Source: Chryseosolibacter indicum
GTDB taxonomy: Bacteria > Bacteroidota > Bacteroidia > Cytophagales > Cyclobacteriaceae
DNA: 64,000 bases
Direction: 5' to 3'
Assembly (NCBI RefSeq): GCF_018598585.1
Contig: NZ_JAHESD010000024.1
Span: 1-64,000 of the forward strand
The position numbers and the translations under genes are program-made. This document shows, piece after piece, positions 420 through 10,557 of the stretch. Below the pieces are notes generated by a model that saw nothing but the letters and a program-made list of their open reading frames with translations, was not told where the DNA came from and did no database searches. Each line of letters begins with the position of its first letter. The stretch's first letter is position 1.

Positions 420-2825
420 TTATTCATACCGCAACGAATGTACCGGATTCGCAATTGCGGCTTTGATAGATTGATAACATACCGTAATCCATGCAATAAG
501 AACCGCAGTCACGCCACTTAGAACAATTATCCATGGGCTTACTTCTATACGATAAACGAACCCGGAAAGCCAATGATTAGAGATAAACCATCCTGTTAAT
601 GCAGCAGGAACAAAGGCTATCAAAACAAGTTTCGTGAACTCTCTGGATAATAAAACTGTGAGGCTAAAAACGGTTGCCCCCATTGCTTTGCGAATACCAA
701 TTTCTTTGGTTCTTTGCTCTGATGTAAATGCAGCCAATGCAAATAAACCCAATGAAGCAATAAATATTGCCAAGGCAGAAAAGATACTAAATATAGTACC
801 CATGCGCTGCTCGACACGAAATAGCTGATCAAATTCCTGATCCAGAAAAGTATATTCGAAAGGTTCATTTGATGAATTGTCTCTCCATAACCTTTCAATA
901 GTCGATATCAATGATTGCGCACTTCCCTCGTAACGGATAAGAAGGTTGTTCTCATTTTTTCTTAGTCTTATGGAAAGAGGTCTTACCTGACTTTTGAACG
1001 ACTCGAAATTGAAATTTTTAACAACTCCTACTACTTTTAAACGCTCTGTTGTACCATTATCCTTATAAAGGATCTCTTCTCCAACGGGATTCTGATATCC
1101 AAATTCCTTTGCCGCAGCTTCATTCAAAATAATGCCCATCGAATCTGAAGGAAACTCCTTAGAGAAATATCTTCCTTCTTTCATTTCAAATTTCATTACG
1201 TCCATATGATCATAATCCGCATAGTATATACCCATGATATGATCTTGCTCAGAACCTGCCTCCTTAAAAACAGTAGTGCTGTTAACACCGGGAAAAGTGT
1301 TATTGGTATAGCTTAGTTTTGTTACACCTGATTGCTGAGCCAATGCATTTCTGAATGCTTCCTTATTTACACCTAGCCTTCCTGTGTTCTGCAAAATAAG
1401 AACATTACTTTTATCAATACCCATGTTCTTTTCCTGCATGTATTGTATTTGTTGATAAACAACAAGGGTAAAAATGATAAGAAAGATAGATAACGCGAAT
1501 TGGAACACAACAAGAAAACTTCTAACTCCTTTGCTTTTCATCCCTGCCCTTACCTTTCCCTTTAATACTTCAACTGCATTGAAAGAAGTGAGGTAAAATG
1601 CTGGATAGCTTCCGGCTACCAGTCCCACAATAATGACAAGTGTTACAAGGCCCGATATAAACAAGGGACTTACCAATGTTGCCATCCCTAGTTGTTTTCC
1701 TGATAATAGATTGAAATGCGGTAAAAGGAAATAACAGGCAACCAAAGCGAATATGACAGCAGCAAAACTATAGACAGTAGATTCCGCAAGAAATTGCCCT
1801 ACCATCTGACCTCGAAGTGATCCTAGCGTTTTTCTTAAACCAACCTCTTTAGCACGGCCTGCAGATCGTGCCGTAGATAAGTTCATGAAATTAATGCAGG
1901 CAATAACTATAATAAACAGTCCAATAGCAGCAAAGAAATAGATATACATAACATTTCCCCCGGCCTCTATATCATCTTTGGATGTTGAATGCAGGTGTAT
2001 ATCTGTTAACTTGGTAGAATAATAGCCATACTCCCCTCCCTGGCTTCGCATCTGCTTCAAGGAAATTCCCATGAACCGTTCGGCTTCTGGGCCAACATAT
2101 TTCTCAACAAGAAATTTAAATTTCTCATTTACCTGCTCCACGTGTGCGTTCTCGCGCAGCAAGAAGTAAGAATAAAGGTAATTATTTAACCAAACGGTAC
2201 TTTTCAACCCTTCATTAGATGAGGCTGAAATAAGCATATTAAAGCTAAAGTGAGAATTTCCTGGCGTGTTTGCTGCAATGCCTGTTACTTTATAGGAACG
2301 ATTGTCATTTCCGATTACTAACAGTTTCCCCATAGCTTGCTCGTTACCAAAATACTTTTTAGCTGTAGCTTCTGTTACTACTACCGTATTAGGCTCTTTA
2401 AGGGCGGTAGCAATATCACCATCCAGTAACTTAAAGCTAAAGAATTGAAAGAAGTTAGAATCAGCAAAAATCACTTTCTCTTCTGTAAAAGCTTTACCGT
2501 TGTATTTTACTGAGGGTTTTCCCCAGTAAGGACTAATGCGAGTAGCAGCTTCCACTTCAGGAATTTCAGCTACAAGCGTTGAGGCCATGGGTGGGCATGT
2601 ACTTGCTGTTCTTATATCCTGGCCTGAAATTTTGCCATGCAAACCTACCTGGTATATTCTTTCTGCACGTGAATGAAATTTATCATAACTTATTTCATCA
2701 GCTATGTATAATATGATAAGCAGACATGCAGTAATACCGATCGTCATGCCTAAAATATTTATGGCCGAGAAAAACTTGTACTTAAGAATATTACGAAGGG
2801 CTACCTTAAAATAATTTTGTAACAT
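420..2825 (-). CDS. FtsX/MacB-type ABC transporter permease
   Basis: An 801-residue inner-membrane permease of the duplicated FtsX/MacB_PCD kind common in Bacteroidota. An N-terminal membrane segment (about residues 17-43) is followed by a periplasmic MacB-like domain. Three membrane helices follow with the typical RAKEVGLRKTLGS stretch, then a second periplasmic domain and a final three-helix block with RTKEIGIRKAMGA. The two EIGIRK/EVGLRK coupling motifs are the contact sites for an ATPase. It follows the 2865-5237 permease by 39 bases and is surely in the same transcript. No ATPase is encoded in this unit, so it probably uses the one at 5468-6157. Transported substrate unknown; the family moves lipoproteins, peptides or drugs or acts by mechanotransmission. 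Confidence 0.9.
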   Translation of the reverse strand: MLQNYFKVALRNILKYKFFSAINILGMTIGITACLLIILYIADEISYDKFHSRAERIYQVGLHGKISGQDIRTASTCPPMASTLVAEIPEVEAATRISPYWGKPSVKYNGKAFTEEKVIFADSNFFQFFSFKLLDGDIATALKEPNTVVVTEATAKKYFGNEQAMGKLLVIGNDNRSYKVTGIAANTPGNSHFSFNMLISASSNEGLKSTVWLNNYLYSYFLLRENAHVEQVNEKFKFLVEKYVGPEAERFMGISLKQMRSQGGEYGYYSTKLTDIHLHSTSKDDIEAGGNVMYIYFFAAIGLFIIVIACINFMNLSTARSAGRAKEVGLRKTLGSLRGQMVGQFLAESTVYSFAAVIFALVACYFLLPHFNLLSGKQLGMATLVSPLFISGLVTLVIIVGLVAGSYPAFYLTSFNAVEVLKGKVRAGMKSKGVRSFLVVFQFALSIFLIIFTLVVYQQIQYMQEKNMGIDKSNVLILQNTGRLGVNKEAFRNALAQQSGVTKLSYTNNTFPGVNSTTVFKEAGSEQDHIMGIYYADYDHMDVMKFEMKEGRYFSKEFPSDSMGIILNEAAAKEFGYQNPVGEEILYKDNGTTERLKVVGVVKNFNFESFKSQVRPLSIRLRKNENNLLIRYEGSAQSLISTIERLWRDNSSNEPFEYTFLDQEFDQLFRVEQRMGTIFSIFSALAIFIASLGLFALAAFTSEQRTKEIGIRKAMGATVFSLTVLLSREFTKLVLIAFVPAALTGWFISNHWLSGFVYRIEVSPWIIVLSGVTAVLIAWITVCYQSIKAAIANPVHSLRYE

Positions 2826-2864: not shown

Positions 2865-5237
2865 TCACTCTGTCCTCAACGTATTTACAGGATTCATAGA
2901 CGCTGCACTGAATACTTTATAGCCTATTGCTATTGCGGAAATAAGAAACATAATAGACACTGAGGCAATTAAGGTCAACTCCGTTGTCGATTGGTAATAT
3001 TTCCAAATGCTTCCCATCAATGCGTCAACAAGTAAAAAGCTTACAGTAGATCCAAGAAGTGAAGCAATAACGAGTATAACCACAAATTCAGTATTGATGA
3101 TTCTGGTGATATTACCAATAGATGCCCCAAGCACTTTGCGAACACCTATTTCTTTCATCTTTTTAATGATGTTCAAGGATACAAGCGTGAAGAGGCCGGT
3201 AGCGGAAAGAAGCAGTGCAACTGCACCAAGAAATCCAAACATCTTTACAATGTTATTATTCACCGTATCTGCCTCAACCATATCTTCGTTTATAACACGG
3301 CCATTGTACAATCTATTTGGGAATACATCTTTCCATGATGCCTCCATAAACTTATCTACGTCTTTCACTTTATCGGAAGGCATATTAACAACCACATGTG
3401 TGTATTTATCTTTAGACGTATACCTGATCATTAATGGTTCATTCTCGCGCCACAAGCCATTGGTATAAACATCTTTTACAACGCCAACCACAAATAGTTT
3501 AACCGTATCCATCCACTTTATCTCTTTCCCTATAGGATCATCCCAGCCGAAGCTTCTAACTAATTTTTCAGATACGATGATTGATTCACGCTTGTCTGTC
3601 TCTGAGTCCTTTTGAAAATCCCTCCCCTTAATGAGTTTAAGGTCCAATGCTTTTAAATATTCATCGCCAACTTCAATAATATCTACTTCCAACTGTTGCG
3701 ATTCATATTTAACGGGATCATTATATCCGGCAGAAAATAGACTGTGGGTGGAACCTGCTATCAGATTAATATCTTTATTTTGAAGCAGTGTGTTTTTATA
3801 CGTCTCATACTCGTTGCCATTTTCAACGTAAGCTATAATTACATTATTAGGATTAAATCCTATATCGAAGGCACGCTGATATTTAGAATTCTGATAAAAG
3901 GCAATCGCGAAAATTATTGCTAGCAGTGAGATAGAATATTGCAGTGCGAGAAGAGCCCTGGTAAATACATTGGTACCACCAAACTTCAGCTTGCCTTTAA
4001 GAATGCTTACTGGTTCAAAATGACTTATATAAAATGCCGGGTAGGATCCAGCAATCAATGCGGTAACAAGAAGTGTGCATACAATAAAAATAACAAACGC
4101 CGGATTATCGATATAATGCGAAGTCAACTTCATGTTTACCCAAAGAGAATTCCACGCATTCAATAATACTTCACCAAAGAACAATCCTAAAAGCAGGGCT
4201 ATTGTACATATAAAGAAGGTCTCTCCTAAAAATTGAGCAATTAGTTGACTACGCAAGCTTCCCATCACTTTCCTTACACCGATCTCTTTCAACCGTCGTG
4301 AAGAAATAGCAATAGCAGTGTTTGTCATATTAAAACATGCAATGAGTAATACAAGCACCGCCATAAATCCAGGAGCAACAACTGCAGCACGATTATTTGC
4401 TGAGGTTGTCTGTGACCAGGTCTCGTTGGCGGAGTCTCTCCTTGCCATACCTTCAAACGGATCAAGAACGTATTCCTTGATCTGAAAATCCTCCCTTACC
4501 TTATTATTATTTTCAATGTATTGCTGGATTTGTTTACTTACTACAGCCACGCGTGCGGGTTCTTTTATATGAACGAATATTGTGTTGTGATTCTTCCAAT
4601 CATCCTCCTTCAGGCCCCTTGCCTCATCGTAATAGTTTTCGAAGTTCATGAAAGCCTGCCAGTGAAAACTTGAATTACTGGGTTGCTTTTTAAATACACC
4701 TCCTACCTGAAATTCTTTTAACACAGTACCGACTACCTGCGTTAGTTGCTTACCTACTGCATCGGTAGTGTTAAATAGTTTAAGTGCCATTTCATCACTT
4801 AAAAATACTTTCGACTTATCCTTTAATTCATCAGGATTGCCAGATATAAACTCAAAAGAAAATACATTGAACAAGTCAGCATCTGCATAGCCTAGTTGGC
4901 CAGGAAATAAGTTATCTTCTACTTTAAAGTTTGACCATGAATGGTTAATCCTTACAACTTTGTCTACATCAGAAATATTATGTCGGATTACTTCGCCTAA
5001 AGGACCAGGAGCATGACCATATAATGTTGTTACATTATTGAACTCTCTTACTGAACTTATCCTATAAGTGTTTTTGGCGTTGACATGATGAGAATCGAAC
5101 ATCACATCATATTCCCAATTAAAATAAGCTACAATACAACAGGCAATACCAATGGCGAGACCGAAGATATTAATGAAGATAAACATTTTGTTCTTCATCA
5201 TACTTCTCCAAGTAATGAGTAAGTAATTTCTAATCAT
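2865..5237 (-). CDS. FtsX/MacB-type ABC transporter permease
   Basis: A 790-residue paralogue of the next gene downstream, with the same plan. It has an N-terminal helix, a MacB-like periplasmic domain, a three-helix block with RRLKEIGVRKVMGS, a second periplasmic domain, and a C-terminal block with KKMKEIGVRKVLGA. It is first in a two-permease unit. Upstream lie a GTTC-N6-GAAC palindrome (5369-5384) and a sigma-54-like element (5302-5317), the same pair of signals found before the adaptor gene at 7490. That suggests co-regulation with the HlyD-ATPase unit by the response regulator at 7775. A terminator at 5404-5430 separates it from the ATPase gene. Confidence 0.9.
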   Translation of the reverse strand: MIRNYLLITWRSMMKNKMFIFINIFGLAIGIACCIVAYFNWEYDVMFDSHHVNAKNTYRISSVREFNNVTTLYGHAPGPLGEVIRHNISDVDKVVRINHSWSNFKVEDNLFPGQLGYADADLFNVFSFEFISGNPDELKDKSKVFLSDEMALKLFNTTDAVGKQLTQVVGTVLKEFQVGGVFKKQPSNSSFHWQAFMNFENYYDEARGLKEDDWKNHNTIFVHIKEPARVAVVSKQIQQYIENNNKVREDFQIKEYVLDPFEGMARRDSANETWSQTTSANNRAAVVAPGFMAVLVLLIACFNMTNTAIAISSRRLKEIGVRKVMGSLRSQLIAQFLGETFFICTIALLLGLFFGEVLLNAWNSLWVNMKLTSHYIDNPAFVIFIVCTLLVTALIAGSYPAFYISHFEPVSILKGKLKFGGTNVFTRALLALQYSISLLAIIFAIAFYQNSKYQRAFDIGFNPNNVIIAYVENGNEYETYKNTLLQNKDINLIAGSTHSLFSAGYNDPVKYESQQLEVDIIEVGDEYLKALDLKLIKGRDFQKDSETDKRESIIVSEKLVRSFGWDDPIGKEIKWMDTVKLFVVGVVKDVYTNGLWRENEPLMIRYTSKDKYTHVVVNMPSDKVKDVDKFMEASWKDVFPNRLYNGRVINEDMVEADTVNNNIVKMFGFLGAVALLLSATGLFTLVSLNIIKKMKEIGVRKVLGASIGNITRIINTEFVVILVIASLLGSTVSFLLVDALMGSIWKYYQSTTELTLIASVSIMFLISAIAIGYKVFSAASMNPVNTLRTE

Positions 5238-5301: not shown

Positions 5302-5317
5302 GCCAGAAATTATGCCA
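5302..5317 (-). promoter_or_regulatory. Candidate sigma-54 promoter of the permease unit
   Basis: On the minus strand this reads TGGCATAATTTCTGGC. The first half matches the -24 element TGGCAC closely. The -12 half reads CTGG rather than TTGC, so the usual GC falls one base late. The element at 7523-7538 has the same deviation. The inferred start is about 50 bases before the permease ATG. The link to sigma-54 is inference from sequence shape plus the nearby NtrC-type activator. Confidence 0.45.
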
Positions 5318-5368
5318 TAATCAACTTCTTTAATTAAAGAACGATTGAACAGCTTTTCGTTTTTACAA

Positions 5369-5384
5369 TGTTCAGATACGAACA
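5369..5384. promoter_or_regulatory. GTTC-N6-GAAC palindrome, candidate activator site
   Basis: TGTTCAGATACGAACA, an inverted repeat TGTTC-N6-GAACA. It lies about 55-70 bases upstream of the candidate -24 element, the usual place for an NtrC-type enhancer. It has the same arms and spacing as the site at 7612-7627. Confidence 0.5.
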
Positions 5385-5403
5385 GAAGGTGTACAGATAT
5401 AAA

Positions 5404-5430
5404 AAAAGCCTTTCAATTTGAAAGGCTTTT
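5404..5430 (-). terminator. Rho-independent terminator after the ABC ATPase
   Basis: The stem AAAAGCCTTTCAA pairs with TTGAAAGGCTTTT around a minimal loop. On the minus strand it is followed by a run of T. It lies about 40 bases after the ATPase stop codon and ends the HlyD-ATPase transcript. Confidence 0.85.
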
Positions 5431-5467
5431 AAGAATCAAAAATTGATTTCGACTCAGAGTAAACTTG

Positions 5468-6157
5468 TTAAATATGGAAGTGTTCTTTAATGTTTTCAGT
5501 TACTACCTTACCATCGAACAGGTTAACAATCCGGTGTGCATAGTTAGCATCATAAGGAGAGTGAGTAACCATTACAATAGTAGTTCCTTCTTCATTCAAT
5601 TGCGAAAGAAGCTTCATTACTTCTTCACCATTAGCAGAGTCAAGGTTACCAGTAGGTTCATCGGCTAGAATTACTTTTGGTTTGGCTACTATGGCACGTG
5701 CTATGGCTACACGCTGCTGCTGCCCGCCAGAAAGCTGTTGAGGAAAATGGTTTCTTCTATGCATGATATTCATACGCTCTAACACCTCTTCAACACGTGT
5801 TTTACGTTCAGCAGCAGGCACCTTTAGATACAACAAGGGCAACTCTACATTTTCAAATACAGTAAGTTCGTCAATCAGGTTAAAGCTTTGGAATACAAAA
5901 CCTATAGAACCCTTACGCAATTGTGCGCGCTGGCGTTCCGAATATTTTGAAACTTCGTGTTCGCCGAAATAATACTCACCTCCTGATGGATTATCAAGTA
6001 GTCCGACAATGTTCAGCAAAGTAGATTTGCCGCATCCTGAAGGCCCCATGATGGCTACGAATTCGCCATCTTTAATATCAAGGTTAATGTTATTAAGTGC
6101 CGTTGTTTCTACTTCTTCAGTAGTGTACACTTTCTCGAGGTTTTTAAGTTTTATCAT
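5468..6157 (-). CDS. ABC transporter ATP-binding protein (MacB/LolD type)
   Basis: A 229-residue cytoplasmic ATPase with every ABC signature. These are Walker [10 protein letters not shown] near residue 39, the Q-loop in [13 protein letters not shown], the signature [14 protein letters not shown], Walker [14 protein letters not shown] and the switch histidine in MVTHS. The [20 protein letters not shown] stretch is typical of the LolD/MacB branch. It is 82 bases downstream of the membrane-fusion protein gene and ends at a strong terminator. It most likely energises the two FtsX-type permeases encoded just beyond that terminator. Confidence 0.93.
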
Positions 6158-6239
6158 GGCGTTAAGATTTATGCTTTATTGAGATGTTCTATTGGTACAA
6201 TTAGTTTTAACTCTATACTTCTATTTTTAAAAAAGGTTA

Positions 6240-7490
6240 CTAATTCAGAAGTAATACTTCGTTATCCCCGAAGTTTTCGTACGACGATGTAATCACGCGA
6301 TCGCCAGGCTGAAGGCCTTCCAGTATTTCAAAGTTCTCAGGATTCTTCCTGCCCAACTTAATATCACGCTTCACTGCCCTGTTTTCACCATCCAACACAT
6401 AAACCCAATTTCCACCAGTATCCTTGTAGAATCCACCTACTGCCAATAACAATTCTTCAGTTGACTGGCTAAGTTCTATTCTTAATCGTAATGATTGTCC
6501 CCTAACAATTCCTTTTGGTGCTTCGCCCAGAAATTTCATATCCACATCAAATCTACCATTAGAAATATCTTCATATTTATAGATAATTTCCAGTGAATAA
6601 TCTTTATTATTATAAGTTGTGGTTGCGCGTTGCCCTACCGTGATCCTTGGAAGGTATAACTCATCAATAGGCACCCTTACTTTATAGCTTCCTACAACAT
6701 CCATCTGACCTAAACGTTGGCCAATGTTAACATTCTGCCCTGGATACAATTGCTGAGGAAATATAAGCTGTCCGTCAATCGGTGCACGAATAACCAGGTT
6801 ATCCAATATTTTACCGGCACTAACTAAACTCTGGGTCATTTTGCGCTCAGAAAAATTAAGATCATTGTATTGTCTGATACGATCAACCGAGTCTGCCTTA
6901 TACACTTCATAAGTTATTCGCTTTCTCTCAAGATTATATAGATAATCAGCTTCAGTTTTTTCGAACTCCTGCTTAGAGATCAACTTTTTAGCAAAAAGTT
7001 GCTTCTGACGAGTATATTGTGGGCCGAGAACCTGTAATTGATTTTCAATCAAAGCCAGATTCTGACGTTGTTCAAGGTCGTTTCTTGAAATCTGTAATCT
7101 CGTCTCGCGCAATTGGTTTATACTCTGATTTAACTGAGCTTCCTGCTGTAAGACATTCAATTCGCGGTTGAGGTTGCTTAATTCGAGAATTTTATCTCCT
7201 TTTTTTAGCATCTGACCACTTTCAGCTGATATATTTTTAATGATACCACCTTCAACAGCATCCAGGTATACGGTAAGACTAGGCATTACTGTACCTGTCT
7301 GCGGAATTGTTTCCTGAAATACACCACGCTTTACTGTTGAGATGGTTATTTTATCCTTTTCGATTTTTAATTTGGAACGCCTGTCTGCAAAGATGAACTG
7401 GTACCCTACAAATACAATGAATATTGCTATCCCACTGTAAGTACCAATGCGCTTCAGCGTCCATTTTTTCTTTTGAATTTTCTTATCCAT
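6240..7490 (-). CDS. HlyD-like periplasmic adaptor subunit
   Basis: A 416-residue membrane-fusion protein. A short cytoplasmic lysine-rich start is followed by one membrane anchor (about residues 15-33) and a lipoyl-like half domain (GTVMPSLTVYLDAVEGGIIKNI). A long coiled-coil hairpin (about 110-225), the second lipoyl half (LVIRAPIDGQLI) and beta-barrel domains with LEGLQPGDRVITSSYE complete it. It should bridge an inner-membrane ABC permease to an outer-membrane channel. It is first in its unit, before the ATPase. A sigma-54-like element lies about 35 bases upstream and the gene diverges from the sigma-54 activator gene. Confidence 0.9.
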   Translation of the reverse strand: MDKKIQKKKWTLKRIGTYSGIAIFIVFVGYQFIFADRRSKLKIEKDKITISTVKRGVFQETIPQTGTVMPSLTVYLDAVEGGIIKNISAESGQMLKKGDKILELSNLNRELNVLQQEAQLNQSINQLRETRLQISRNDLEQRQNLALIENQLQVLGPQYTRQKQLFAKKLISKQEFEKTEADYLYNLERKRITYEVYKADSVDRIRQYNDLNFSERKMTQSLVSAGKILDNLVIRAPIDGQLIFPQQLYPGQNVNIGQRLGQMDVVGSYKVRVPIDELYLPRITVGQRATTTYNNKDYSLEIIYKYEDISNGRFDVDMKFLGEAPKGIVRGQSLRLRIELSQSTEELLLAVGGFYKDTGGNWVYVLDGENRAVKRDIKLGRKNPENFEILEGLQPGDRVITSSYENFGDNEVLLLN

Positions 7491-7522
7491 TCTTTTGGTC
7501 TTTCACTAGACAGCTTATGAAA

Positions 7523-7538
7523 GCCAACAAGCGTGCCA
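7523..7538 (-). promoter_or_regulatory. Candidate sigma-54 promoter of the HlyD-ABC unit
   Basis: On the minus strand this reads TGGCACGCTTGTTGGC. The -24 half (TGGCACG) is a perfect match to the sigma-54 consensus. The -12 half is TTGG instead of TTGC, so the GC dinucleotide is shifted by one base. Transcription would start about 20 bases before the adaptor ATG at 7490. Confidence 0.55.
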
Positions 7539-7591
7539 GACGATTTTCGCTCTAACAAACCCTTAAATTAGTCAAATTTCGATGTTTTTCT

Positions 7592-7627
7592 CGTTCACAT
7601 ATGAACGAAGCTGTTCGGGACCGAACA
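7592..7627. promoter_or_regulatory. Tandem GTTC-N6-GAAC sites between divergent operons
   Basis: Two 16-base inverted repeats, CGTTCACATATGAACG (7592-7607) and TGTTCGGGACCGAACA (7612-7627), have centres 20 bases apart, about two helical turns. They lie roughly midway between the minus-strand element at 7523-7538 and the plus-strand element at 7701-7715. That is the expected layout for an NtrC-type activator serving both directions. The activator itself is encoded at 7775. Confidence 0.6.
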
Positions 7628-7700
7628 TAATCGGACAGCGTAAAAGCGAACAATCCTTTAAATTTACCAGATTTCAGCGAAAGAAGGTGAAAATAGAAAT

Positions 7701-7715
7701 CGGTATGTACTTTGC
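7701..7715 (+). promoter_or_regulatory. Weak candidate sigma-54 promoter of the regulator-kinase pair
   Basis: CGGTATGTACTTTGC has the invariant GG-N10-GC spacing and a TTTGC -12 half, but a poor -24 half. It would start transcription about 45 bases before the regulator ATG and would allow autoregulation through the sites at 7592-7627. Confidence 0.4.
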
Positions 7716-7732
7716 CCATTAACGGACAGCCC

Positions 7733-7748
7733 GTTTCGAATTCGAAAC
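7733..7748. promoter_or_regulatory. Perfect palindrome in the regulator leader
   Basis: GTTTCGAATTCGAAAC is a perfect 16-base palindrome. It also fits the looser TTC-N6-GAA form of the neighbouring sites. It lies just downstream of the presumed plus-strand start, where a bound protein could repress. Confidence 0.35.
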
Positions 7749-7774
7749 ACTAACATTACTTAAACTCACGATCA

Positions 7775-9157
7775 ATGTCAGAAAATAAGCATGGTAAAAT
7801 TCTAATTGTTGACGATAACGAAGACCTTCTTAAAGCTGCCAAGATGTATCTGAAAAGACATTTCTCGCAGGTTGATATAGAGAAGAATCCGGAAGCAATA
7901 CCCTCCCTTATGAATAATGAGGATTACGATGTTATTCTTCTCGATATGAATTTTACCAAAGATGTGAGCAGCGGCAGTGAAGGATATTATTGGCTTGAAA
8001 AGATTTTACAACTCGATCCTTCCGCTGTTGTTGTACTCATTACAGCTTATGGTGATGTACAAATGGCTGTAAGGGCAATTAAAGCCGGGGCGACGGATTT
8101 TGTTTTGAAACCGTGGGAGAACGAAAAGCTGTTGGCAACACTTTACTCAGCCATGCGGCTGCGGGAAACACGCGACGAAGTTGAGACACTCAAGATAAAA
8201 AACCAGGAGATAAATCAGGTTATTAATACACGTTTTAGCGAGATCATAGGCCAGAGCCCCAGTATGCAAAAGATCTTTCAAACCATTGAGCGTGTAGCCA
8301 AGACAGATGCTAACCTGTTAATACTGGGTGAAAATGGAACGGGTAAGGAATTAATTGCGCGGGCTATTCATAAAAATTCTCCCAGGCAGAATGAATCCTT
8401 TGTAAGTGTCGATCTTGGTTCTATAACAGAAACATTGTTTGAAAGCGAACTGTTCGGGCATAAAAAAGGAGCGTTTACCGATGCAAAAGAAGACAGGGCC
8501 GGGCGTTTTGAACTAGCCAATGGAGGCACTTTATTTCTTGATGAGATAGGAAATTTAAGTATGCCATTACAAGCAAAGCTTCTTACTGTTTTACAAAATA
8601 GAAAGGTAAGCCGGGTAGGATCAAACAAAGATACACCAATCAATATCCGTCTTGTTTGTGCTACAAACATGCCTCTTTACGAGATGGTAAAGGATAATCG
8701 TTTCAGGCAAGATTTACTTTATCGTATCAATACAATTGAAATAGAAATTCCACCGTTAAGAGAGCGTTTCGAAGACATTCCACTGCTTGCCAATCACTTC
8801 CTTAAATACTATAGCGAGAAATACGAAAAACAAGTTGCCAAAATCAGCGATGCAGCCATGACACGGCTTCACAAACATAACTGGCCGGGCAATATACGAG
8901 AGCTCCAACACGCCATTGAACGCGCTGTTATTCTTAGTAACGGAAGTGTTTTACAGCCTGAAGACTTTAACCTGAGCGCATCACAAACAAAAGAAGATGG
9001 ACAGCTAAGTCTCGACCAATATAATCTCGAAGAAGTAGAGAAACTACTGATACGAAAGGTGTTAAAGAAGTTTAATGGCAATATAACCCAGGCAGCTTCT
9101 GAACTTGGACTAACAAGATCATCGTTATACCGAAGGCTGGAAAAGTATGGACTTTAA
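7775..9157 (+). CDS. Sigma-54-dependent response regulator (NtrC family)
   Basis: A 460-residue three-domain activator. The receiver domain spans about residues 7-125, with acidic pair Asp13-Asp14, phosphoacceptor Asp57 and Lys112. The AAA+ domain spans about 153-385, with Walker A GENGTGKE at 185-192. Its sigma-54 contact loop reads GAFTDA (232-237) in place of the commoner GAFTGA, a variant also found in working activators. A Fis-type helix-turn-helix at the end contains NITQAASELGLTRSSLYRRL. The histidine kinase gene follows 47 bases later. The divergent ABC export unit and the permease unit carry matching palindromes and sigma-54-like elements, so they are the likely targets. The inducing signal is unknown. 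Confidence 0.95.
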   Translation: MSENKHGKILIVDDNEDLLKAAKMYLKRHFSQVDIEKNPEAIPSLMNNEDYDVILLDMNFTKDVSSGSEGYYWLEKILQLDPSAVVVLITAYGDVQMAVRAIKAGATDFVLKPWENEKLLATLYSAMRLRETRDEVETLKIKNQEINQVINTRFSEIIGQSPSMQKIFQTIERVAKTDANLLILGENGTGKELIARAIHKNSPRQNESFVSVDLGSITETLFESELFGHKKGAFTDAKEDRAGRFELANGGTLFLDEIGNLSMPLQAKLLTVLQNRKVSRVGSNKDTPINIRLVCATNMPLYEMVKDNRFRQDLLYRINTIEIEIPPLRERFEDIPLLANHFLKYYSEKYEKQVAKISDAAMTRLHKHNWPGNIRELQHAIERAVILSNGSVLQPEDFNLSASQTKEDGQLSLDQYNLEEVEKLLIRKVLKKFNGNITQAASELGLTRSSLYRRLEKYGL

Positions 9158-9204: not shown

Positions 9205-10557
9205 ATGCACTTTGGATTTAATGATTTTCCCACCCGCGTAGCATTCCGGGTAATAATTTTAGGACTAACGATGGCCTTGTTCATCTTTATGATATCGAGG
9301 CCTAATATGCTATTTGCCGCTATTTTAACCTTTATCATTATAATAGGGCAATTGGTAGAGATCTGCCGTTTTGTTAGTCAAACCAACCGTAAGCTTACAC
9401 GCTTTCTTGAATCCGTAAAGTATTCCGATTTTATTTCCGGCTTTACTTCTGATAATAAGCTTGGCAAAAGTTTTCGTGAGCTTAACGTAGCATTTAACGA
9501 AGTGCTTGAGGCCTTTAGAAAAGCGCGTTCAGAAAAAGAAGAGCATTGGCAATATCTTAATTCGGTAGTTCAACAGGTCCGAACAGGTATACTATCTTTT
9601 GATGCAGAAGGCAACGTACAGCTAATGAATGCAAATGCTAAGCGATTCATGAATGTTACTTCCATCAAAAATATAAAAGAGCTTATTCAAATCAATGCAA
9701 AACTGTATCATGCTATAAATAGTGTTGAACCAGGCAAAAGCGAACTTTATAAGGGAAGTAACGAGCTATACCTCACCATACAGGCTACAGAATTGCGCAT
9801 ACGGGCAATAGACGTAAAACTGGTAACACTTCAGAACATTCAGCCTGAATTACAAAAGCAGGAACTTGAAGCCTGGCAAAATTTAACCCGCGTATTACGT
9901 CATGAGATCATGAATTCAATTACACCTATTTCCTCACTTACCTCTACGCTAAGAGATATTCTTGAGCAGGAGATGGTAAGGAAGGATGGCCACTGGGAAT
10001 TAAAGGAAGAAGGAGCAGATGATCTCAAAGAAGGGCTCAGTACTATTGAAAACCGTAGTCGTGGTTTAATTAAATTCATTGACGCCTATCGTGAATATAC
10101 TTCACTGCCTAAACCCCATTTATCAACGATAAGACTGAAAGACCTTCTCGATAAGGTAGCGCAGCTGATGAAGAATGAGATCAGGAAAACGAAAATCGCA
10201 TTTCACTGCGAGTGCTCATCAGACTACCTGACGATACAAGCTGACCTGGAAATGATAGAGCAGGTATTGATTAACCTGTTGAAAAATGCCGTAGAAGCAA
10301 TGATGGAAACAGAAAATGCTCGGCTGCAATTAATAGGCAGGTATGAAGAAAATGCTGTAATTATCGAAGTAACTGACAATGGCCCTGGGATTATTAAAGA
10401 AGCACTGGAGCATATATTTGTCCCTTTCTATACAACCAAGCGAACCGGTTCAGGTATTGGACTAAGTCTTTCTCGGCAGATCATGCAAATGCATAATGGC
10501 TCCCTATCGGTTGTCTCAGAACCGGATGTAAAAACAACCTTTACCCTTAAGTTCTAA
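9205..10557 (+). CDS. Membrane-bound sensor histidine kinase
   Basis: A 450-residue kinase, the likely partner of the regulator just upstream. Two membrane helices occupy about residues 12-52, with almost no periplasmic loop between them, so it probably senses membrane or cytoplasmic signals. A linker and a PAS-like region (about 113-215) precede the dimerisation helix with phosphoacceptor His233 in LRHEIMNSITPISSL. The ATPase domain has the N box NLLKNAVEAMM, G1 DNGPGI and G2 GSGIGLSLSRQI. The short extracytoplasmic part and the NtrB-like HEIMN motif suit a kinase paired with a sigma-54 activator. It begins at an ATG 47 bases after the regulator stop. Confidence 0.93.
   Translation: MHFGFNDFPTRVAFRVIILGLTMALFIFMISRPNMLFAAILTFIIIIGQLVEICRFVSQTNRKLTRFLESVKYSDFISGFTSDNKLGKSFRELNVAFNEVLEAFRKARSEKEEHWQYLNSVVQQVRTGILSFDAEGNVQLMNANAKRFMNVTSIKNIKELIQINAKLYHAINSVEPGKSELYKGSNELYLTIQATELRIRAIDVKLVTLQNIQPELQKQELEAWQNLTRVLRHEIMNSITPISSLTSTLRDILEQEMVRKDGHWELKEEGADDLKEGLSTIENRSRGLIKFIDAYREYTSLPKPHLSTIRLKDLLDKVAQLMKNEIRKTKIAFHCECSSDYLTIQADLEMIEQVLINLLKNAVEAMMETENARLQLIGRYEENAVIIEVTDNGPGIIKEALEHIFVPFYTTKRTGSGIGLSLSRQIMQMHNGSLSVVSEPDVKTTFTLKF

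Follow-up and report, generated by a model that had tools for sequence, protein, structure and literature searches.

A predicted sigma-54 regulon that would co-induce scattered parts of MacAB-TolC-like exporters in a relative of Chryseolinea

Introduction

The NtrC, ZraR and AtoC regulons combine a bEBP carrying a receiver and a Fis-type HTH domain with palindromic upstream sites, -24/-12 promoters and a regulator gene that is divergent from its target. The locus described here resembles them in its bEBP architecture, its palindromic upstream sites, its predicted -24/-12 promoters and its divergent regulator, whereas it differs from them in having FtsX-type exporter targets, a -12 C that is not kept and a GAFTDA loop in the regulator.

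The exporter genes of the locus also have described counterparts. The ADOP permeases, which carry the word 'orphan' in their name, provide the best curated model (TIGR03434) for both permeases of the locus, P1 and P2. The MacB_PCD-FtsX duplication is in common, with two stretches of each domain in both proteins, and the scores of 252.9 and 264.7 bits fall below the model cut-off of 622.3. The darobactin exporter DarB-DarC-DarD supplies the best models for the adaptor (DarC, 183.1 against a cut-off of 450) and the ATPase (DarD, 291.6 against 375); with DarB at 83.8 and 125.2 against 700, all of these scores are under the curated cut-offs.

A computed analysis of bacterial classes, Bacteroidia among them, predicts that sigma-54 promoters with the consensus TGGCAC-N5-7-TTGCT are enriched upstream of FtsX permeases (COG0577), and presents this as first evidence of such a link (PMC12316311). 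The link between sigma-54 and FtsX in general is therefore already in print. That computed regulon shares this link with the locus described here, whereas the available part of the paper names no regulator, operator or spacing, and the adaptor promoters found here do not match the TTGC of its consensus. Our literature searches found no paper on this regulator, its operator, the phasing or the -12 relaxation, PMC12316311 being the only near relative noticed, and those on orphan FtsX permeases and on FtsX ABC transporters with sigma-54 in Bacteroid groups gave no match.

Results

The window (the whole stretch of 64,000 nucleotides that was analysed) comes from a bacterium related to Chryseolinea. 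Its regulator and kinase genes are divergent from a HlyD adaptor and an ABC ATPase, which are followed by a hairpin and then by P1 and P2 (Table 1). The preliminary description had called the activator NtrC-class, and a domain search agrees, with receiver, Sigma54_activat and HTH_8 domains in the regulator. The sequence was also read again for the other parts of that description: the palindromes, the two TGGCAY elements of the minus strand and the element of the plus strand were all found where it had placed them, and the terminator that it proposed between the HlyD-ATPase unit and the permeases corresponds to a terminator-like hairpin. The GTTC-N6-GAAC cores of the operators are located at 5370-5383, 7593-7606 and 7613-7626, and a total of five such cores occur in the window against 0.71 expected, a count reached by none of 100 shuffles.

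Table 1. Genes and predicted regulatory parts of the locus.
Feature	Coordinates	Strand	Description
P2, duplicated FtsX/MacB_PCD permease	420..2825	-	domain matches
P1, duplicated FtsX/MacB_PCD permease	2865..5237	-	domain matches
Predicted sigma-54-like promoter of permease unit	5302..5317	-	TGGCATAATTTCTGGC
Operator 3 (permease unit), putative	5369..5384	.	TGTTCAGATACGAACA
Terminator-like hairpin, 3' of ATPase gene	5404..5430	-	between ATPase and permeases
MacB/LolD-type ATPase	5468..6157	-	best curated model DarD, under cut-off
HlyD/MacA-type adaptor	6240..7490	-	best curated model DarC, under cut-off
Predicted sigma-54-like promoter of HlyD-ATPase unit	7523..7538	-	TGGCACGCTTGTTGGC, GG-N10-G
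Operator 1 (HlyD-proximal), putative	7592..7607	.	CGTTCACATATGAACG
Operator 2, putative	7612..7627	.	TGTTCGGGACCGAACA; start 20 bp from operator 1 start
Predicted sigma-54-like promoter facing regulator	7701..7715	+	CGGTATGTACTTTGC, GG-N10-GC
NtrC-class response regulator	7775..9157	+	receiver, AAA+ with GAFTDA loop, Fis-type HTH
Sensor histidine kinase	9205..10557	+	HATPase_c domain

HlyD was found to be divergent, directly or past one ORF, in 23 of the 26 loci around the best matches of the regulator (L053-L078). In named genomes, 80 regulator loci were identified, including those of Ohtaekwangia, Chryseolinea, Dawidia, Fulvivirga and Roseivirga. Ohtaekwangia koreensis DSM 25262 (L145) and Chryseolinea serpens DSM 24574 (L156) are among the strains with the locus. 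HlyD adjoins the regulator in 63 of them, and the 17 loci without HlyD beside the regulator, which include most Roseivirga, were left out of the counts. These 63 regulator-HlyD intergenic regions, 16 further non-identical ones and that of the window make up a test set of 80 regions, all of which were selected for having a divergent HlyD and come from related loci, so that the counts below are not independent.

Paired palindromes were observed in 70 of the 80 regions and in no shuffles. The adaptor-facing pattern TGGCAY-N5-TTGG is likewise present in 70 regions (shuffle mean 0.04), as is the regulator-facing pattern CGGTAY-N5/6-TTG, which always takes the N5 form (shuffles 0.28), and neither pattern occurs on the wrong strand in any of the 80. 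By eye, the promoter is still present, together with a looser operator, in several remote regions that fail the strict patterns. The P1-facing promoter element was found in 31 of 47 relatives, with no occurrence on the opposite strand and 0.24 in shuffles of the element alone, and is missing from the other 16; together with an operator it was found in 31 relatives by a loosened operator pattern and in 27 by a stricter one, against 0.02 in shuffles. A GG-N10-G core was thus present in 70/80 adaptor-facing, 70/80 regulator-facing and 31/47 P1-facing cases. All three promoters predicted by the preliminary description, like its operator pair, recur in relatives with strict geometry and under strand-specific controls, and the conservation of these candidate sites is far beyond chance at the level of sequence.

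The distance from the HlyD element to the nearest palindrome, in the 71 regions that have both, is 51-55 bp in 61 regions, 43 bp in five and 63-74 bp in five. For the regulator-facing element the gap is 62-65 bp in 49 of 67 regions, and the gaps between the P1 promoter and its operator lie near 42, 52, 63 or 72 bp. A search of 196 genomes of the family for the composite of operator, gap and promoter returned 300 sites against 22 for the reversed pattern. The gaps among the matches listed (150 gaps) peak at 53-54, 65 and 73-75 bp, part of the peak at 73 reflecting the 20-bp offset between paired operators. The gaps are thus helically phased, which fits an activator that loops DNA to the sigma-54 polymerase.

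The genome holds about 45 MacB_PCD/FtsX permeases (grouped from 84 domain matches), many of which have no adjoining ATPase in the loci examined. A genome search for an operator upstream of a TGGCA element, as the preliminary description had suggested, gave 26 rows with two patterns against 11 for the reversed controls; gene context was covered for 18 of the 26. Eleven rows, representing ten sites, precede exporter genes or a sigma-54 regulator. The genes in question are those of HlyD and P1, of five further permeases (C75, C156, C44, C104 and C172), of a possible sixth permease with the element about 190 bp upstream (C150), of a second ATPase with a TolC-type protein after it (C128) and of a clade-B regulator (C102); the C156 and C150 sites are without the -13 G. 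Another two rows precede a 157-aa gene (C126) and a small ORF (C128:123769), and five are inside genes (C115, C117:181117, C109, C106 and C127). The second ATPase is 52% identical to that of the window, with the TolC-type gene directly after it (L303:13307-15415, G000:C128), and the pair is preceded by the operator GTCCGTTTCCGGAC and the element TGGCACCATTCTGGC.

The association with permeases was also observed with the promoter element alone. TGGCAY-N6-YG occurs at most 130 bp upstream of 11 of the 40 long FtsX/MacB permeases, while 29 lack it; it is found upstream of none of the 40 on the opposite strand and of none of the six short permeases, three fragments or contig-edge matches having been left out of these 46. 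Among 231 control genes, which include intra-operon genes, seven carry the element, five of which are HlyD, P1 and three permeases, leaving about 2 in 226. A stricter control was limited to genes preceded by 100 bp or more of intergenic sequence (144 genes, from loci partly chosen for their permeases); 11 of them have the element, of which nine are permeases, one is HlyD and one is a 157-aa gene. Exporter genes (adaptor, permease or ATPase) follow 31 of the 50 composite loci examined in the family. The first set contributes 21 of 30 (12 adaptors, which are relatives of the window's own adaptor, 7 permeases and 2 ATPases) and the second set, consisting of 20 hand-picked loci, contributes 10 (9 permeases and 1 ATPase).

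Discussion

We consider it probable, at about 0.86, that the locus is part of a sigma-54 regulon which co-induces scattered parts of MacAB-TolC-like exporters through this regulator and/or its paralogues. The genes, sites, geometry, conservation and genome-wide association behind this reading come from sequence. The sensor kinase would phosphorylate the NtrC-class regulator, which would bind palindrome pairs of about GTYC-N6-GRAC whose starts are 20 bp from each other. Being an AAA+ activator, the regulator would open the sigma-54 RNA polymerase waiting at GG-N10-G promoters, and transcription would start there. The promoters would lie on the preferred helix face, about 43, 53, 64 or 74 bp from the operators. 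One operator pair would drive the HlyD-ATPase unit leftwards and the regulator gene rightwards, and a separate operator would drive P1 and P2. Scattered ATPase-less FtsX/MacB permeases and the second ATPase-TolC pair would be under like control, by the regulator and/or its close paralogues, and far-apart parts of the exporters, which may share an ATPase, would thereby be induced together. Judging from the protein families, the response is most likely one to envelope stress or an antimicrobial peptide, and the exporters may serve in envelope stress or peptide export. The sigma-54 reading of the preliminary description stands in its promoters and operators, which are conserved; its regulon of two units has to be widened to many dispersed units, including orphan permeases and the second ATPase-TolC pair, and its view of the TGG of the -12 half as a local variant has to be given up (see below).

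A rival that falls not far short of an even chance accepts a real sigma-54 regulon and is compatible with the promoter logic of the co-induction reading, but it places the dispersed permeases under paralogues of the C102, C123 and C155 types and lets the regulator of the window govern its own locus only, as one of several parallel circuits. Such close paralogues do exist, being 53-64% identical to the regulator with the GAFTDA loop in common, and comparable operators occur at the gene of the C102-type regulator itself. On the other hand, some operators of orphan permeases resemble those of the window (GTCCGCTGGCGAAC at C104, and a pair at C44 with starts 20 bp apart) and the recognition helices are nearly alike (TRSSLYRR against TRASLYRR), so that cross-binding is possible. 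The assignment of each site to the window's regulator instead of a paralogue is putative.

The clade-B regulators, found in 25 loci, are 62-67% identical to that of the window. Upstream of their own genes, operators of a similar kind and a stretch like TTGGCAYNRTTTT (TTGGCAY) were seen by eye in most loci, and no recognisable -12 element was seen before these genes in the 25 loci. The clade-B loci L079, L091, L092 and L122-L141 tend to carry the TTGGCAYNRTTTT stretch without a -12 element. A nearby ATPase/permease in L092 has a bacteriocin exporter as its best curated model, under the cut-off.

TAnnTTTG is the usual -7 element in Bacteroidota. It is enriched on the regulator strand, being found in 32 of the 80 regions against 14.9 in shuffles (largest 22), and this enrichment, like the non-canonical -12 halves, would suit the alternative that the conserved elements are a Bacteroidota sigma-70-family promoter with an unrelated activator or repressor site. 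We regard this alternative as very unlikely. On the adaptor strand TAnnTTTG is rarer than in shuffles (8/80 against 15.5) and the two-part form TTG-N17-23-TAnnTTTG is absent from all 80 regions, which disfavours a sigma-70-type promoter at the adaptor. The two-part form on the regulator strand, with 5/80 regions against 2.5 in shuffles, does not exceed the largest shuffle (5), and none of the 70 regulator-facing GG-N10-G elements contains TAnnTTTG. The spacing, the phased distant operators and the adjoining bEBP fit sigma-54 instead. Fourteen of the regulator-strand TAnnTTTG motifs have their end 92-100 bp upstream of the start codon (7491-7774, plus strand, in the window, and relatives), and the excess on this strand suggests that the regulator gene may also have a vegetative promoter.

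A chance alignment of frequent palindromes and TGGCA strings, to which the full palindrome taken alone would lend itself (19 sites genome-wide against 17 in the reversed control), is next to impossible given that the conserved regulator-HlyD regions, the permease-upstream counts, the composite sites of the family and the P1-facing promoters all exceed their controls, shuffled or strand-based, in relatives, genome and family. TGGCAY-N5-YTGG alone is weakly enriched in the genome (38 against 25 in the control). Since the palindrome alone is not enriched, it is the combination of motifs, their position and their conservation that exceed chance.

The promoter searches fixed GG-N10-G and left the base after it free. 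In the 71 adaptor promoters this base was G 66 times and T five times; the 70 regulator-facing promoters had C in 37, T in 21, A in 6 and G in 6; and the 31 permease promoters had G in 18, A in 12 and a single C. A C after the -13 G (TTGC) is therefore kept in about half of the regulator-facing promoters and is not the rule for the adaptor and P1 promoters. Towards the adaptor, the canonical TGGCAY-N6-TGC occurs in none of the 80 regions and the looser TGGCA-N8-GC in four (shuffles 1.4). The TGG ending is conserved for the adaptor promoter across the family, TTGG being present in 70 of the 80 adaptor-facing regions, and the base that follows varies by target, which rejects a local variant. A tie between TGG and a second RpoN was rejected as well, because the one-RpoN genomes G017 and G035 share the TTGG promoter.

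RpoN was present in 58 of the 59 genomes searched. The genome of the window encodes it in two copies, and two full matches were found in its genus (3 genomes) and in G046; in G009 and G021 the second match is partial. The second RpoN lies close to a sigma-54 activator (L006, L016; G000:C139). When compared with E. coli sigma-54, the RpoN of this genome has an intact RpoN box and keeps R383 but has I at the E378 position (alignment-counted numbering), and I stands there in all 31 RpoN loci compared. E378 and R383 have been called highly conserved, and both were shown to crosslink to promoter DNA (PMC5505868). The activator loop departs from GAFTGA as well: it is GAFTDA in the regulator, G[AS]FTDA in 56/56 clade-A loci and of the TDA type in 25/25 clade-B loci. 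NorR with the same loop change (G266D) is reported to activate still (PMC2941729). Promoters with a -12 C were sought beside the other sigma-54 activators of the genome as a means of separating the influence of RpoN from that of the activator, and this search gave nothing usable.

A tentative extension, with the odds leaning clearly against it, is that a sigma-54 dialect has arisen in this order, in which the I at E378 of RpoN, the GAFTDA activators and GG-N10-G promoters with a free or target-specific -12 base shifted together, perhaps in relations of cause and effect. The -12 base in such a dialect would be G for adaptors and G, A, T or C for permeases. The regulon run by this dialect would span the genome, and its pool of dispersed orphan FtsX permeases would be served by one or two adaptor/ATPase/TolC units, with one ATPase powering many interchangeable permeases.

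Co-regulation with the HlyD-ATPase unit and the ATPase-TolC pair would give a concrete and testable answer to the question of what powers the ATPase-less permeases, and co-induction suggests how 'orphan' pumps may be powered. The operator code would let such regulons be read in other genomes. Promoter scanners based on TTGC would miss many promoters of this kind because of the relaxed -12 element.

Small ORFs were also observed after some of the sites. An ORF of about 60 aa with a hydrophobic N-terminus follows the operator GTCCAAATGTGAAC and TGGCATGTTATTCG (L303:4531-4711, minus strand, G000:C128), and short ORFs with one hydrophobic stretch were seen by eye after sites in L352 and L364. Peptides of 58-62 aa with a common C-terminal PFS-L-GKFRRLF-RH (L348:259-444, L349:263-451 and L329, in G114 and G014) lie directly downstream of operator and TGGCAY sites and are possibly exported peptides of a related circuit.
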